20,578 bases of DNA. It comes from a virus. Location of the stretch: the IMG/VR virus record IMGVR_UViG_3300043773_001154, positions 1-20,578 of that record; one strand, 5' to 3'. Below the pieces are notes generated by a model. The model saw nothing but the letters and a program-made list of their open reading frames with translations, searched no databases and was not told the origin of the DNA. This document shows positions 2,445-17,988 of this stretch, piece after piece (position 1 is the first letter of the stretch; each line of letters opens with the position of its first letter). A program made the translations under genes and the position numbers.

Positions 2445-2675
2445 ATGAGCCGACAGATATTCGAAATCGCGTCAGAAATCCGCCGCAATTGGCAACCCGT
2501 GCACGTTGCGGCCCGTCCGTACTTGGAGGCAATGGACCATTTGAACACCGTTCGAGATTCGTTTTATTATGATGATGCCCGGACCATTATTCTCTATTTC
2601 CTAAATAATGCAGGGACGTGGCGCGGTGACGTAGCGCGGCGCGTAAAGGCCGAGTTGCGGGAGGCGGTCAAATGA
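2445..2675 (+). CDS. Conserved phage hypothetical protein (76 aa)
   Basis: A 76-residue soluble protein. The stretch VAARPYLEAMDHL near the middle, YFLNNAGTWRG (51-61) and the basic, helical C-terminus resemble a small family common in tailed phages, with PYLxAM and TWRGxxAR signatures, that has no assigned function. The match is from memory, without a search. The start is the ATG at 2445, set in a long A-rich leader. The frame is open upstream to 2265, but that part lies over the end of the transglycosylase gene and is not supported. The stop overlaps the next start (ATGA at 2672), and the Shine-Dalgarno site for that next gene (GGGAGG) lies in this gene's last codons, so the two are probably coupled. 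Confidence 0.8.
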   Translation: MSRQIFEIASEIRRNWQPVHVAARPYLEAMDHLNTVRDSFYYDDARTIILYFLNNAGTWRGDVARRVKAELREAVK

Positions 2676-3364
2676 AACTCCTTTCCGTAGGAAGTGACGC
2701 TAAGACAAGCAAAGGGGAAGCGTATGGTTGGCGGACGGCTATTCTCTACCTAGCCCCGGCTAAAGTGGCGGGACGGGGCAACCTTTGCCCCAACGCTTCG
2801 TCGGGATGCCTTGCAGCTTGCCTTTATACGGCGGGACGCGGGGCATTCTCGAATGTCCAAAACTCGCGGATCAGTAAGGCGCGTTTCTTCTTCGATGATC
2901 CGGCGGGCTTCCGTTCGCAACTTCTCGCAGAAATCACAGCTTTCATTGCCGATTGCGGGAGTGACGGAGTCACGCCTTGCGTTCGTTTAAACGGCACTTC
3001 TGACATCCCATGGGAGGGCTTGCAAATCATGCAACGTTTCCCCGACGTTCGGTTTTATGACTACACTAAGAACGTGCGCCGTGCGTTGCGCTTCGCCGCT
3101 GGAGAACTCCCGCCAAACTATCATCTGACATTCAGCCGTTCGGAATGCAATGAGCGGGACGCGTTAAGCGTCTTAGAAGCGGGAGGGAATGTCGCCGCCG
3201 TTTTTTCCGGCGACTTACCGCACACTTGGCACGGCTCTCCGGTTGTCAATGGCGACATGAGCGACCTTCGGTTTTTGGACCCTAAGCGTTGCGTAGTGGG
3301 GTTGAAGGCTAAAGGTGCGGCCAAGCGCGACGTTTCGGGATTTGTTCTGTCCGTGAACCCATGA
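2672..3364 (+). CDS. GP88-family protein of unknown function
   Basis: This 230-residue protein matches what I know of the phage/plasmid GP88 family (Pfam Gene product 88). The N-terminal part carries a cysteine signature, NLCPNASSGCLAACLYTAGRG (C39, C46, C50), which could bind metal or an Fe-S cluster. Conserved-looking segments follow: VRLNGTSDI (104-112), FYDYTKN (128-134), HLTFSRSE (151-158) and DMSDLRFLD (195-203). The alternating strand-helix pattern with a Cys triad is reminiscent of a TIM-barrel or radical-SAM-like enzyme, but that is speculation; the family has no established activity. The start is the ATG at 2672, with GGGAGG about 9 bases upstream and a 4-base ATGA overlap with the preceding gene. 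It also overlaps the next gene by ATGA (3361), so it belongs to one transcript. Confidence 0.85.
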   Translation: MKLLSVGSDAKTSKGEAYGWRTAILYLAPAKVAGRGNLCPNASSGCLAACLYTAGRGAFSNVQNSRISKARFFFDDPAGFRSQLLAEITAFIADCGSDGVTPCVRLNGTSDIPWEGLQIMQRFPDVRFYDYTKNVRRALRFAAGELPPNYHLTFSRSECNERDALSVLEAGGNVAAVFSGDLPHTWHGSPVVNGDMSDLRFLDPKRCVVGLKAKGAAKRDVSGFVLSVNP

Positions 3365-3618
3365 AACTACCCTCCATTCACCCGAACGGGACAACCCCGG
3401 AGCGACTCTTTGAAACTTACAAAGCCGCGCACGTTGCCGCGGAGAATGCGATTCAAGCCTTGCGAGAAGTAGAGTTTCACGCTCGAGACTATTATCCGCA
3501 AGGCCCGGAAGCATTTGAGGAAGCTCGGGAGATGATGCGTTCGCAATTGCGCGACCTCTACCGCGTTTCAGAAGAGCTAGCCGCCGTTGCTTATTACGCA
3601 TACGACTTCCGCAAATGA
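3361..3618 (+). CDS. Conserved small helical phage protein (85 aa)
   Basis: An 85-residue mostly helical protein. It opens with IHPNGTTPERLFETY and carries ARDYYPQGPEAFEEA in the middle. This HPNGT...RDYYPQG layout occurs in many tailed-phage hypothetical proteins of this size, often near GP88-like genes, and no function is established. There are no membrane segments, cysteines or catalytic motifs. It starts at the ATGA overlap with the GP88 gene and ends at another ATGA overlap with the 31-aa ORF, so it is probably translated by re-initiation; no Shine-Dalgarno site is seen. Confidence 0.8.
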   Translation: MKLPSIHPNGTTPERLFETYKAAHVAAENAIQALREVEFHARDYYPQGPEAFEEAREMMRSQLRDLYRVSEELAAVAYYAYDFRK

Positions 3619-3710
3619 GCCCCGACGTAATACTAGCCGTTATCCGGTGGTTATCCGGACTAGGGGACAAAGCCCAGCCTAGGCGGCCGAAACGAAGGCG
3701 CAGGAGATAA
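3615..3710 (+). CDS. 31-aa micro-ORF with hydrophobic head and arginine-rich tail
   Basis: A 31-codon frame that starts at the ATGA overlap with the preceding gene and stops four bases before the terminator hairpin. It opens with a short hydrophobic/amphipathic segment (VILAVIRWLSGLG) and ends in a very basic run (RPKRRRRR). The head is too short for a standard transmembrane helix. An amphipathic membrane-active peptide, such as a lysis helper in a cassette that already has a transglycosylase, would fit, but an RNA- or DNA-binding peptide or chance are also possible. The tight overlap and the end just before the terminator are the only support for coding. Confidence 0.45.
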   Translation: MSPDVILAVIRWLSGLGDKAQPRRPKRRRRR

Positions 3711-3713
3711 AGC

Positions 3714-3741
3714 AAGCCCCGGAGCGATCCGGGGCTTTTTT
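3714..3741 (+). terminator. Strong intrinsic terminator
   Basis: A perfect 10-bp stem (AAGCCCCGGA at 3714-3723 with TCCGGGGCTT at 3728-3737) closes on a GCGA (GNRA-type) tetraloop, and the T run extends to 3741. It directly follows the 31-aa ORF and ends the 2042-3710 operon. It separates that operon from the replication genes. Confidence 0.92.
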
Positions 3742-4077
3742 ATGCCCTACGGACTCAGTAGGACATCAGCCGATTAGGGCATGGGCACAGTCAACTTGCG
3801 ATAAAATCGATAGGGCTGAATGCGTTCTGTTGCAAAGCAAATGCATGGAGAAATCTGGAGCCGACCGACCCGGCCGTTTTTCAAGCGGCTCATGCGCGTT
3901 GCCGTAGGTCAATGAAATTTCACAATTACGCCTATATAGGCATAAGGCACTTTTCTGCAAAAACTTTTCGTTTTGAAACCAGATGCCAAATTTTGGAATT
4001 TAGCCCTATATAGGCATAAGGAATTTTTTGGGGATTGTTTTTCGGTTTAGGCTGTGCATGAGTCTGCGGCGAAACAT
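3742..4077. other. Noncoding control region, candidate replication origin
   Basis: No gene is evident. The left part has an 8-bp inverted repeat (ATGCCCTA 3742-3749 with TAGGGCAT 3775-3782), the element TTGCAAAGCAA (3830-3840, also present at 1643-1653) and GAGCCG/CGGCTC arms (3858-3863, 3886-3891). The right part, from about 3910, is AT-rich. It holds two 17-bp repeats with a CCTATATAGG core (3931-3947, 4005-4021), a dyad AAAAC-TTTTC-GTTTT (3960-3974) and CCAAA-T-TTTGG (3986-3996). It lies between an upstream terminator and the first replication-side gene. This suits an early promoter with operators or an origin with iterons; the sequence alone does not separate these. Confidence 0.65.
3930..4021. 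repeat. Two 17-bp iteron-like repeats with a palindromic core
   Basis: CCTATATAGGCATAAGG occurs at 3931-3947 and 4005-4021, 74 bp apart (about seven helical turns). The core CCTATATAGG is a perfect palindrome; in the first copy it extends to 12 bp (GCCTATATAGGC, 3930-3941). The TATATA could serve as a -10 element, but no good -35 lies 17 bases upstream of either copy. Confidence 0.75.
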
Positions 4078-4482
4078 ATGTCATCACAAATATCCTCCTG
4101 CGTCAGATTCATGGAACGTATGCGCGAGCGCGTTGAACAGATGGAGCGCGACGAAGCGAAGCTAAACGCTTCAGCAGACAAACGAATCCGAGCCCCCATT
4201 TTCACGCGAACCCGTATCAGTAGCGGCTTCGGCAAGGGCATGATGAGGCGCGACAAATGGCGCGAAGGAATGCCGCGCATCACGCAGGAGGCTTGTGCTG
4301 TAGTCCATGAATACGCACTAGCTCGCGCCGCAAGTGAGGGCTACGTCGGGCGCAAGAGCTACGGCGAGCGAGCAGGCATCAGCACCGCGACCCTCAACCG
4401 TTGCGCCAATGAAATGATTTCGGGCAAGATTTTTCTTGACCCTGTGGATGGTATTTGGAAAGTGAAACACGTTCAGGGCTAA
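4078..4482 (+). CDS. Putative DNA-binding protein, first gene of the replication block
   Basis: A 134-residue protein starting at the ATG at 4078 in an A-rich context (GAAACATATG). An in-frame GTG at 4054 adds 8 codons and is possible but less likely. The N-terminal third is charged and helical (MERMRERVEQMERDEAKLNA), probably a short coiled coil. The C-terminal part (about 87-130) reads like a winged helix-turn-helix: GRKSYGERAGISTATLNRCA followed by a hydrophobic strand pair ending in GIWKVKH. As first gene after the repeat-bearing region it could be the regulator or initiator that binds the iterons; this is inference from position. I do not recognise a named family. Confidence 0.65.
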   Translation: MSSQISSCVRFMERMRERVEQMERDEAKLNASADKRIRAPIFTRTRISSGFGKGMMRRDKWREGMPRITQEACAVVHEYALARAASEGYVGRKSYGERAGISTATLNRCANEMISGKIFLDPVDGIWKVKHVQG

Positions 4483-4580
4483 CAGGGAAAGACCGCCGTC
4501 CTATCGGACAAGCACACGGGTGCAAGTGGCTCCCATGCGGGGGCTTAGGTGGTTGTCCTGTTGCCAACAAAGAAAGAAAC
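4483..4580 (+). promoter_or_regulatory. Structured leader with GCTCCC/GGGGGC hairpin
   Basis: A 98-base gap with several small stems: GTCC-TATC-GGAC, GCAC-ACGG-GTGC, and a 6-bp stem GCTCCC (4529-4534) / GGGGGC (4539-4544) around ATGC with one U-G pair. Then TTAGGTGG...CCTGTTG follows. A related hairpin with a similar right flank recurs at 6611-6625 ahead of another small gene. It may be a structured RNA leader or processing site. Confidence 0.4.
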
Positions 4581-4778
4581 ATGAGCCTTAACATCGAAGA
4601 CGCTCGCACTATTGTGTTCGAGCTTTCTGAGTACGCAGTGAATCGTTATTGTTTCGTGAATCAAGATGATTACGAAACGATCATGCGCCGCCGCCGGGAA
4701 CTTCTTCAGTTCCTCGACCATCAGCACGAGTTGCTGCATGGTCGCCGCGATCCACTTCTTGACGATCCACACCCATGA
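4581..4778 (+). CDS. Small hypothetical protein (65 aa)
   Basis: A 65-residue acidic and helical protein with no recognised family. The start is the ATG at 4581 after a purine-rich AAAGAAAGAAAC leader. The frame is open upstream but lies in the structured gap. Residues 26-50 are charged (NQDDYETIMRRRRELLQFL), then HQHELLHGRRD, His/Arg-rich near the C-terminus. The stop overlaps the next start by four bases (ATGA at 4775), which supports translation and coupling. It could be a small partner of the downstream winged-helix protein. Confidence 0.62.
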   Translation: MSLNIEDARTIVFELSEYAVNRYCFVNQDDYETIMRRRRELLQFLDHQHELLHGRRDPLLDDPHP

Positions 4779-5029
4779 ACGGCCTCTGGATTCACTCAGA
4801 CATCCTTGAGCGGCAAGACCTATCTCACGCCGAGCGGATGGTATTAGCTTTCATCGCGTCATTCCCAGAAGGCTACTTCGGGAGTGATGGCTATATTGCA
4901 GAGTCTTTGCATATGAACAAGAGAACTGTGGAGCGTGTGGTGTCTTCGCTCTACCGTTCTAATTCCCTAGAAAGAAGGGGAAATTCGCGTTTCTGCGTGT
5001 TAAAAGTACGCAAGAACGCGAGCATATGA
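4775..5029 (+). CDS. Winged helix-turn-helix protein (HTH_36-like)
   Basis: An 84-residue protein that is almost entirely a winged-helix domain. LSHAERMVLAFIASFPEG is the first helix, FGSDGYIAESLHMNKRTVER is the turn and recognition helix, and VVSSLYRSNSLERRG is the last helix and start of the wing. This pattern matches the HTH_36/replication-protein-O N-terminal type, common in phage initiators and regulators. Full-length initiators are much longer, so here it is a stand-alone DNA-binding module, perhaps the origin- or operator-binding factor. ATGA overlap with the preceding gene; 74 noncoding bases follow, without a clear promoter. Confidence 0.78.
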   Translation: MNGLWIHSDILERQDLSHAERMVLAFIASFPEGYFGSDGYIAESLHMNKRTVERVVSSLYRSNSLERRGNSRFCVLKVRKNASI

Positions 5030-8454: not shown

Positions 8455-9714
8455 ATGAATCACGAACAGGTATTTATCGGCTCCTGCTTATTGGAACCTA
8501 CCCTCATCGACATCGCTGTAGCTCAAGGGCTAAAGGCGGATGCATTCAGCAGCAATGACCGCAAGACAATATGGCTCCAGCTTCTTGAGAACCGCACCAA
8601 CTCCCGGCTGACCGATATGCAGTCCATCTTCCTTGAGATGGGCAATGCCTGTCCCGCAGAGGAACTGCTTGCCTGTGAAGCCTCCGCGCCTACCCAGACG
8701 CACGGCAAGAAGGCACTGAAAGCCACGTTAGAGGCGGCCATCATCAGCGATCTACGCCCTGCTCTACGGGATGCGCTGTCGATGATTGATGACAAGGAGA
8801 GCTACACCAAGATCAAGGAAGCCATCGAAGGACTACCCAACCACCTCAAGCCAGAGGAACGGACAGAGGTGAGCTTGCCCGAGACTGTGGACGAGGCTAT
8901 GTCGTGGATCGCTGGACAGATTAGCGGAAACACGGCGCATGAGAAGGTGGTGGTTACGGGTCTGCCGCGCTTCGACGACTCAGCCGGGGCCATTGGGATG
9001 CACGAATACGTCATAGTCGGCGCTCGTACCTCAACAGGTAAGTCCTCGTTCATGACCCAGCTTGCCGCGCACAACCTCTACCGTGGTCTCAGGGTAGCCT
9101 ACTTCACGTTGGAGACATCAGCCAAGGCTGTACTCCTCCAGATGGGAGCACAGCGTGCGGGGGTCAATCTTCGTCGCTTGTCGATGGAGTTTACGAATAA
9201 GCAGGAGATGCTGAAGAAGGAAGTGGAGAAGCTGCGCAATATGCCGCTGCTGGTGTACGAGCGAGACCTGTCGCTCGACCAGATTGAGGCTCGCTGCCGT
9301 CTGCTGGCCTCAACGTGGAAGCCGGATCTCGTCATCATCGACTACCTCGGACTCATCAAGGTGAATGCAGACGGTGCTTACGAACGCATGACCAAGCTCT
9401 CAAAGAGCATGATTCCTCTCAAGAAGGCACTCGGCTGCACCCTCATCGTCGCTGCCCAGCTTAACCGTGGCAACGAACGGGAGGATCGCCCACCCAGCCG
9501 CACAGACTTCCGCGACACAGGCTCCATCGAGGAGGACGCCCACCGTGTCTTGGCCCTGCACCGCCCTAGCAAGGACGACTCAGGCCAGCTACAGGGTTAT
9601 GACCGGAGTGAGTATCTCCAAGAACTCTACCAACTCAAGAACCGCGATGGCAGTCTGGCTCAAACTAGATTGACATTCTTCGCACCACACACCAAATTCG
9701 CTGAGAGGACATAA
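8455..9714 (+). CDS. DnaB-type replicative DNA helicase
   Basis: Hexameric 5'-3' replicative helicase of the DnaB superfamily, acting at the phage fork. Residues 1-125 are the N-terminal domain (EQVFIGSCLLEPTLIDIA). The RecA-like C-terminal domain has Walker A GARTSTGKSS (189-198), the H1a acid in TLET (218-221), Walker B DLVIIDYLGL (291-300), the H3 motif VAAQLNR (332-338) and H4 DFRDTGSIEEDAHRVLALHR (351-370), and ends in LKNRDGS...LTFFAP. At 419 residues it is about the usual length. The ATG at 8455 follows an A7 run with no Shine-Dalgarno site. No primase domain is fused and no primase or polymerase gene lies in the window, so the phage probably uses host DnaG and polymerase or encodes them elsewhere. 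Confidence 0.95.
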   Translation: MNHEQVFIGSCLLEPTLIDIAVAQGLKADAFSSNDRKTIWLQLLENRTNSRLTDMQSIFLEMGNACPAEELLACEASAPTQTHGKKALKATLEAAIISDLRPALRDALSMIDDKESYTKIKEAIEGLPNHLKPEERTEVSLPETVDEAMSWIAGQISGNTAHEKVVVTGLPRFDDSAGAIGMHEYVIVGARTSTGKSSFMTQLAAHNLYRGLRVAYFTLETSAKAVLLQMGAQRAGVNLRRLSMEFTNKQEMLKKEVEKLRNMPLLVYERDLSLDQIEARCRLLASTWKPDLVIIDYLGLIKVNADGAYERMTKLSKSMIPLKKALGCTLIVAAQLNRGNEREDRPPSRTDFRDTGSIEEDAHRVLALHRPSKDDSGQLQGYDRSEYLQELYQLKNRDGSLAQTRLTFFAPHTKFAERT

Positions 9715-16779: not shown

Positions 16780-17169
16780 CTAAGATTTGGCTTTGCCTAG
16801 CTTCTGGGAGCAGAGAACATCGCTCTCTTGGCAGATAAGAAGCTCTTCTCCAGCCGCTATATCCCTAGTGGCTACAATAACAGGTTCGCCATTAAGAATG
16901 GCCTCAGATTCAGCCGCATTGGTTTCAGATTCGTTATCCGAAAAATTCCACCACCTAGCCAAGTCTCCGCAAATTGTTAGCGTCTTTGGTTTAAGACGGC
17001 AAACGTACCCAAAGTGGATTTGGGCTGGGGTAGCCTCGGCCAAATCAACCGATTGGTCTACTTCGGGGTTGAAGTAGTAGACAATCGTGTTCTTAGGAAT
17101 TGGATCTAAAGCAAACAGCCCATTGCCATGCTTAGGGCTTTTCTTGGCCTCAACCCTTACTGTTATCAT
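16780..17169 (-). CDS. Small SET-domain-like protein with altered catalytic motifs
   Basis: A 129-residue protein that is almost entirely a SET domain, the fold of protein lysine methyltransferases. The N-terminal KHGNGLFALDPIPKNTIVYY (14-33) matches the GxGxFA lead, ICGDLARWWNFSDNESETNA (66-85) sits at the NHSCxPN-type motif, and VIVATRDIAAGEELLICQ (97-114) is the AxRDIxxGEEL end. Two key residues differ: NHS reads NFS, and the Tyr expected seven residues after the Gly of GEEL reads Gln (Q114). Methyl transfer may be lost or changed. I use the ATG at 17169 (a TTG at 17175 is also in frame); it overlaps the PAPS-family gene by 20 bases, so the two are coupled. SET proteins are uncommon in phages; the target is unknown. 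Confidence 0.78.
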   Translation of the reverse strand: MITVRVEAKKSPKHGNGLFALDPIPKNTIVYYFNPEVDQSVDLAEATPAQIHFGYVCRLKPKTLTICGDLARWWNFSDNESETNAAESEAILNGEPVIVATRDIAAGEELLICQESDVLCSQKLGKAKS

Positions 17170-17971
17170 CGCCAAAGTAGTCAGCAGCTATACCTTGATA
17201 CGGAATTTGGTCTGAGATGTTGCTGACTTGGCACTGTAGCTTAGGGCAGTAGACTGATTTCTCCTTACTGCGGCGATCAATGCATCTAATGCACACATTG
17301 GCATAATCGCTATTAGTCCATTTGTCGTCCCATTCCTTCCTTGTGGACTGGTTGTACCTGTCCCATTGCTGAGGAATGGAATTGGCCTCCGTGTATGCCC
17401 AAATATCGTCATCCGTCCAATGGCGAAGCGGAAAGGCGAAATCTGGAATGCCGGGAGCATTCTTCTTGATGTCAACGTGCAGCTTAACGCTGCCAGCAAT
17501 CTGGTCTACATCGCTCGACTTGTGACCAACAAACATCACGTCCCAAGGGAAGGCAAAAGAACCCTTAGGTCTATTAAGTACGTCTAAGCCGCAAACCCAC
17601 TTCCTGCCAGCCTCAGGCTCTAAGATGTTCTTAGGCAGATTAAGAATGGCATTGTTTGCACTTCCAACCTGATAGTGGTTGGTAAACGCCATGATTTCCT
17701 TGCCTTCCCACATCGTGATTTGAGAGGGCGGATAGTCATACACTTCAAGACCCCAAGCATTGATTACCGAGTCAGCAAATTGGTACTTCTGGGGCCACCA
17801 AGGATCTCGATAAAAAACAATTTTGGGCTTAAATCCGTGCGAAACAAGAATGTGCAGCAATACCATGCTGTCCTTGCCAAAGGAACACAACATGGCCGGA
17901 TTTTTGTAATTAGCCAAAATCTTGCTAGTTAAAGAAACGCTATCCTTAACTAAGGAGGGAATGTCAGACAT
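17150..17971 (-). CDS. PAPS-reductase/ATP-pyrophosphatase-family protein
   Basis: A 273-residue protein of the PP-loop (N-type ATP pyrophosphatase) superfamily. The PP-loop CSFGKDSMVLLH lies at 29-40, FYRDPWW at 53-59, and FPLRHWTDDDIWAYTEANSI at 180-199 matches the C-terminal part of PAPS reductases and CysD-type enzymes. Five cysteines (C127, C227, C230, C242, C247), four of them in NVCIRC...VYCPKLQC, look like a metal or Fe-S site, unlike the single ECGLH Cys of assimilatory PAPS reductases. Relatives act in sulfur assimilation, tRNA thiolation and DNA phosphorothioation (DndC); which applies here is unknown. I use the ATG at 17971 (a GTG lies just upstream at 17974). It overlaps the SET gene and begins inside a hairpin. 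Bases 17641-17940 are about 44% G+C by hand count (131/300), lower than the neighbouring virion gene. Confidence 0.85.
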   Translation of the reverse strand: MSDIPSLVKDSVSLTSKILANYKNPAMLCSFGKDSMVLLHILVSHGFKPKIVFYRDPWWPQKYQFADSVINAWGLEVYDYPPSQITMWEGKEIMAFTNHYQVGSANNAILNLPKNILEPEAGRKWVCGLDVLNRPKGSFAFPWDVMFVGHKSSDVDQIAGSVKLHVDIKKNAPGIPDFAFPLRHWTDDDIWAYTEANSIPQQWDRYNQSTRKEWDDKWTNSDYANVCIRCIDRRSKEKSVYCPKLQCQVSNISDQIPYQGIAADYFGDDNSKG

Positions 17972-17988
17972 CACTATCTGCTAGTGAT
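17970..17988 (-). promoter_or_regulatory. Hairpin overlapping the start of the PAPS-family gene
   Basis: A perfect 7-bp stem, ATCACTA (17970-17976) with TAGTGAT (17982-17988), and a 5-base loop. On the minus strand its 3' arm contains the GTG at 17974 and the first two bases of the ATG at 17971, so the start would be occluded when folded. TTGACC (18005-18000 on the minus strand) just upstream could be a -35, but no good -10 is present. Confidence 0.6.

Follow-up and report, generated by a model that had tools for sequence, protein, structure and literature searches.

The region between the lysis genes and the replication operon of this phage (3742–4077) reads best as a promoter with paired operators inside an add-on, exchangeable control block, an interpretation that we hold with somewhat better than even confidence; the block probably serves as a switch of local reach rather than as the replication origin of the phage. 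The DNA analysed, here called the window, comprises the 20,578 bases of a linear virus record (IMGVR_UViG_3300043773_001154). The repeats, the terminator, the presence or absence of the block in relatives and its exchange are seen directly in the sequences compared. As a kind of element, the block is ordinary. Its parts and the surrounding genes are:

1–672 and 836–1435, leftward: two genes facing the rightward genes
2036, rightward: transglycosylase gene
2672, rightward: GP88 gene
3361, rightward: gene after GP88, before the terminator and the control block
3714–3737, plus strand: intrinsic terminator hairpin, 10 bp stem and T tail, also in L003–L007
3745–4067, plus strand: control block, unmatched by BLAST in the L006 record
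3830–3848, plus strand: TTGCAAAGCAAATGCATGG, kept in the replaced block of L005/L007 (16/16 specified letters) and resembled at 1640–1659
3926–3947, no strand: palindromic site 1, TTACGCCTATATAGGCATAAGG, with a 20-bp dyad at 3926–3945; proposed operator
3960–3974, no strand: weak dyad AAAACTTTTCGTTTT between the sites
3973–4001, plus strand: promoter-like TTGAAA-17-GAATTT, top score between the sites; no match in a stricter scan
3986–3996, no strand: weak dyad CCAAATTTTGG between the sites
4000–4021, no strand: palindromic site 2, TTAGCCCTATATAGGCATAAGG, with a 20-bp dyad at 4000–4019; proposed operator
4078–4482, plus strand: gene opening the replication operon; 134-aa product, modelled as winged-helix-like at its C-terminal end
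4581, rightward: gene between 4078 and 4775
4775–5029, plus strand: gene for an 84 aa, HTH_36-like winged-helix protein resembling the N-terminal part of PHROG 270 (E 1e-4)
5104, rightward: gene after 4775
about 5756, rightward: exonuclease gene
8455, rightward: DnaB-like helicase gene

The leftward pair is taken to encode the terminase subunits; the first of these genes has a relative in phage C75C1 (49% identity), where it is annotated merely as hypothetical. The window ORFs 17150–17974 and 16780–17175 have no match in the family records L006, G005, G006 and G007 (the L006 record and the partial L001 record being fragments), and by eye the former looks like a PAPS-reductase-type enzyme and the latter like a SET-domain protein.

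The two sites share the exact 17-mer CCTATATAGGCATAAGG (3931–3947 and 4005–4021), which surrounds CCTATATAGG and recurs at a spacing of 74 bp, just as a preliminary description of this DNA had reported. As 20-mers both are near-perfect palindromes, with 9/10 pairs matching in site 1 and 8/10 in site 2. When the region was simulated 2000 times with a first-order Markov model, 34 runs gave a best palindrome of at least 9/10 pairs, so a lone palindrome is unremarkable, and the real signal is the repetition: an exact repeat of at least 17 was reached in 0/2000 such simulations, the longest being 16, once. That the repeat is a product of chance, or neutral and functionless, would agree with its lineage-specific distribution, the pair not being found in other relatives; however, the simulations and the fact that it adjoins the operon start make this highly improbable. 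The 12-mer GCCTATATAGGC, with up to two mismatches allowed, occurs in the window at these two places only. The further dyads that had been described do lie between the sites, but they are weak, and short dyads resembling them are also present in the replaced block of L005. Similarly, the DNA is indeed AT-rich (G+C of 0.37 over 3900–4060, compared with a window profile of roughly 0.45–0.58), but 60-mers about equally AT-rich are found at seven other places in the window. Small ORFs lie on both strands of the region, the longest of 64 codons; one of 33 codons (3912–4013) covers both palindromes and is possibly, if speculatively, a leader peptide.

The repeat can be extended to 60 nt at 70%, and both copies show an equal geometry, TTCACA-16-CATAAG and TTGGAA-16-CATAAG, which is what one would see if each copy were itself a promoter, the pair a diverged duplication and the palindrome a mere shared spacer. 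Yet the hexamers are weak, the −10 lacks its last T and a scan yields no promoter. Moreover, beyond 22 bp the flanks match poorly (16/30 on the right, 11/30 on the left), and duplication is therefore not demonstrated; we regard such tandem promoters as unlikely. A set of phage RNA polymerase promoters was rejected, there being only two copies, both at one place; a search for the RNA_pol family matched 0/19 records, and since the controls were unmatched too it is uninformative. Because the copies are mutually complementary, a transcript running through both might instead fold into a long hairpin acting at the RNA level, and copy 1 does pair with copy 2 in minimum-energy folds. These folds are, however, only slightly better than those of shuffles (z of −1.5 and −1.8, with 6 and 5 of 100 shuffles as good) and the region has no Rfam match at the gathering threshold, which leaves an RNA element very unlikely.

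The strong terminator that had been reported ahead of the region is borne out as a hairpin with a T tail, and it is predicted to close the upstream lysis/GP88 transcription unit. As the region sits after this terminator and before the replication operon, a promoter is needed within it, and by the same position the earlier characterisation of the region as an early control region holds. Against the promoter reading, a scan of the region found no consensus sigma-70 match, a consensus that may not fit the promoter type of the host, and the best weak candidate, between the sites, is no better than background. The block has no DNA similarity in named phages and plasmids, and a cursory literature search (CCTATATAGG, phage C75C1 and related topics) returned nothing on this element.

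How the block is distributed was followed in viral loci carrying 4078 (20 loci) and 5104 (48 loci), many contigs being common to both. The 17-mer pair is found in L001 and L002 only, each of which shares 335 of 336 bases with the window over 3742–4077. Likewise, GCCTATATAGGC with up to one mismatch is present in these 2 of 19 related records and absent in 17, including eight of 37.7–39.5 kb. The sites are seen in just these three near-identical contigs, one base in 336 apart and too alike to reveal conservation within the lineage, which counts against the operator reading. The start of 4078 was compared across 26 rows, not all of them independent (the window, L003–L022 and five of L037–L042, L039 being left out). 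A terminator plus a gap of at least 300 bp before 4078 occurs in six of them (the window and L003–L007), while in the remaining 20 rows 4078 starts −23 to +31 bp from the upstream ORF and the terminator is absent, the exception being a 6-bp stem inside GP88 in L020/L021. Terminator and control gap therefore come together and are missing together where the genes are coupled, in support of the promoter reading.

In L005–L007 the flanks are conserved and the replication proteins are nearly the same, and the block itself is replaced. Window and L006 are 92.8% identical over 2445–3744 and 91.6% over 4068–4586, with no BLAST match over 3745–4067. The residual likeness between the two blocks is weak (its local score was reached by 0/300 and its global score by 2/300 shuffles), with one clear island, GCAAAGCAANTGCATGG. 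Elements like this island are found in the window at 3827–3846 and 1640–1659, in L005 at 4765 and in the divergent regions of L008, L012, L013, L015 and L017, with 14–16 of 16 letters matched; 14 was reached in none of 20 single-strand simulations. A scan also reported a 59-codon ORF in the gap of L005–L007, taken as spurious because the 3361 homologue ends near 4568 and the terminator lies at about 4667–4689 in these loci. From presence and absence together with the flank comparison, we conclude that the block is an add-on which, as one unit, either diverges or is exchanged, and which is dispensable to most of the family; exchange between conserved flanks is as expected of a regulatory module. 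Most members of this phage family run their lysis and replication genes together, and in a subset the two groups are split by the insertion of a terminator and of a control block that can be swapped.

That 4078 and 4775 encode winged-helix proteins, as had been proposed, is plausible, although better founded for 4775 than for 4078. The 4775 product matches HTH_36 at 5e-5, just below the curated cut-off, its AlphaFold model is a winged helix, and Foldseek relates it to MarR-like folds (E about 0.01), with MepR and T4 MotA among the matches (E about 0.01, TM 0.6). The AlphaFold model of 4078 has a winged-helix-like C-terminal half (pLDDT about 86–92 over residues 61–130, although the five models vary widely, from 41 to 77) with weak Foldseek matches only, the best at E 0.035. 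On these models both proteins may bind DNA, but they are probably not specific to these sites. The 4775 product is 98% identical in L005, L010, L011 and L022 and 96% in L014, and the 4078 product is 95% identical in L005 and 87% in L011. The sites are absent from the records of L006 (the sister of L005), L011 and L014, and CCTATATAGG does not occur in the L010, L014 and L022 loci. As the predicted recognition helices, judged by eye from alignments, are unchanged in relatives that lack the sites, 4078 and 4775 are disfavoured as dedicated binders. A comparison of genes with L006 revealed no small gene for a DNA-binding protein whose presence follows that of the block; gene 7329 differs (34%), but by eye its product resembles a coiled coil. 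The exact palindrome TTANGCCTATATAGGCNTAA was also rejected as a widespread host operator: it matched one contig in genome_contigs (Flavobacterium) and L001/L002 in viral_contigs, and with this single match a host regulon lends a host binder no support.

The same comparisons bear on whether the region is a replication origin, with the palindromes as iterons to which the 4078 or the 4775 protein binds, this protein then loading the DnaB-like helicase encoded at 8455. The AT-rich DNA upstream of replication genes and the resemblance of 4775 to a replication initiation family, PHROG 270, are in keeping with an origin. However, there are two copies 74 bp apart and not three or more closely spaced direct repeats, for which the term iterons was an overstatement; the sites are lacking in 17 of the 19 related records, eight of 37–40 kb among them; and the near-identical proteins of L005 and L011 (98% for 4775, 87–95% for 4078) occur without the sites, so that sites and putative initiators are not conserved together. 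The block is missing in 20 of the 26 rows and replaced in L005–L007, and the DnaA box TTWTNCACA, which not every such origin needs, is absent from both strands of the whole window. When the strand-skew check suggested in the preliminary description was run, the nearest local turn fell at about 1.5–2 kb, with none at the region; this is weak evidence, because the turn may reflect the coding strand only. In G005 the skew minimum lies at 34.0 kb, beyond the gene for the small terminase subunit by 0.6 kb. Since an essential origin should not be an add-on that is exchangeable and dispensable to most of the family, we judge the origin proposed earlier to be quite unlikely, and with the block absent or replaced in relatives, no DnaA box and the skew as it is, a conserved origin was rejected as the main reading.

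The region from which the terminase-side and the lysis-side genes diverge (1436–2035) contains a C-tract of the CCCCC[GT]CCCCCCC type at 1627–1640. Tracts of this type are present in the divergent region of 20/20 loci examined, and in 19/20 this region also has between one and three TTTGCAAATTTTTTAA-like stretches. This candidate origin, packaging or promoter region is a better place than the control block to search for an origin or a packaging signal.

A scan for two copies of CCTATATAGG 45–75 bp apart gave 16 contigs, all viewed as sequence and falling by sequence likeness into about eight kinds. The ORF lists of L084, L080, L079, L085 and L075 were read: the pair lies inside an ORF in L084 and upstream of a leftward ORF, by eye an oxygenase gene, in L075, and no replication gene was recognised in the lists of L079 and L080. 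The gene order of the window recurs in L085/L081 only, a phage that is AT-rich and unrelated, in which a GP88 gene (E 2.8e-20) is followed by a terminator (1393–1436), CCTATATAGG at 1526 and 1592, promoter-like sites and then replication genes, later ORFs being interpreted as those of a helicase, a DNA polymerase and a ribonucleotide reductase. One promoter-like site, TTGAAA-17-TATACT (1555–1583, 10/12 matches), lies between the two copies and another, TTGACA-18-TATATT (1653–1682, 11/12), after both; as the scan found 3 against 2.9 expected from shuffles, these are suggestive only. The GP88 gene occurs in 4 of 14 records searched (L001, L002, L081 and L085; L077 and L083 were left out), and what makes the coincidence with L085 suggestive is that only 265 of 50,697 phage records have GP88 relatives.

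In L129/L130, whose GP88 is 66% identical to that of L085, the palindromes TACTATAGTA and ACTATATAGT lie 63 bp apart at the alignment columns of the L085 sites; the second keeps CTATATAG with the outer pair altered on both sides and the symmetry retained. This symmetry-keeping change and the gene order of L085/L081 count for the operator reading. Among the 20 GP88 relatives of L085 examined (L128–L147, with L127, the L081 contig, left out), CCTATATAGG occurs only in L128, which is L085 itself, and a palindrome pair of this kind only in L129/L130; four named GP88 phages have neither. Palindrome pairs arose by chance in 83–140 of 3000 simulations of L085-type regions, in 30 of 3000 for the window and, among 203 AT-rich background windows, in 7, and the likeness of L129/L130 is thus modest support only. 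The wider idea, that in several aquatic phages unrelated to one another the replication operon opens with an exchangeable terminator-operator-promoter cassette, and that a common putative factor of the host or the phage recognises the CTATATAG-type pairs 63–74 bp apart in these cassettes, is a generalisation we consider quite unlikely.

For the paired-operator promoter that we favour, the evidence consists of repeated palindromes of operator size placed between a terminator and an operon start; from these we infer that there is a promoter, a binder and a looping geometry. Transcription of the lysis/GP88 unit would end at the terminator, and a promoter within 3745–4077 would start it afresh for the replication operon, which begins at 4078. 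With a spacing of 74 bp, close to seven helical turns, the two 20-bp palindromes would form paired sites on one face of the DNA, where a putative dimeric DNA-binding protein occupying both could block, activate or loop the promoter. Such a binder might be a regulator of the host, or else a protein of the phage that does not belong to its conserved replication set. If the sites do bind a regulator, they lend themselves to testing how the timing of replication is set by such phages when their hosts are uncultured.

Among known systems, plasmid iteron origins and lambda ori are alike in placing repeated sites within AT-rich DNA close to replication genes; in contrast, the window has two copies 74 bp apart, no DnaA box and sites that are not conserved together with the replication proteins. 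NrdR boxes, by their consensus, are likewise paired palindromic TATA-centred sites, but the symmetry centre and register differ by eye and no nrd gene was recognised in the window. The arrangement in L085/L081 is similar in its GP88 gene, terminator and two CCTATATAGG 66 bp apart followed by replication genes, whereas it differs in a replication gene set that looks T7-like from the ORFs, in the flanks of the sites and in having promoter-like sites. Finally, lambda-type operators and looping repressor pairs differ from our region, near which no repressor gene was identified and in which no consensus promoter was found, in a window where no lysogeny module was seen; they resemble it in their two near-palindromes of ~20 bp, set whole helical turns apart beside the start of an operon.
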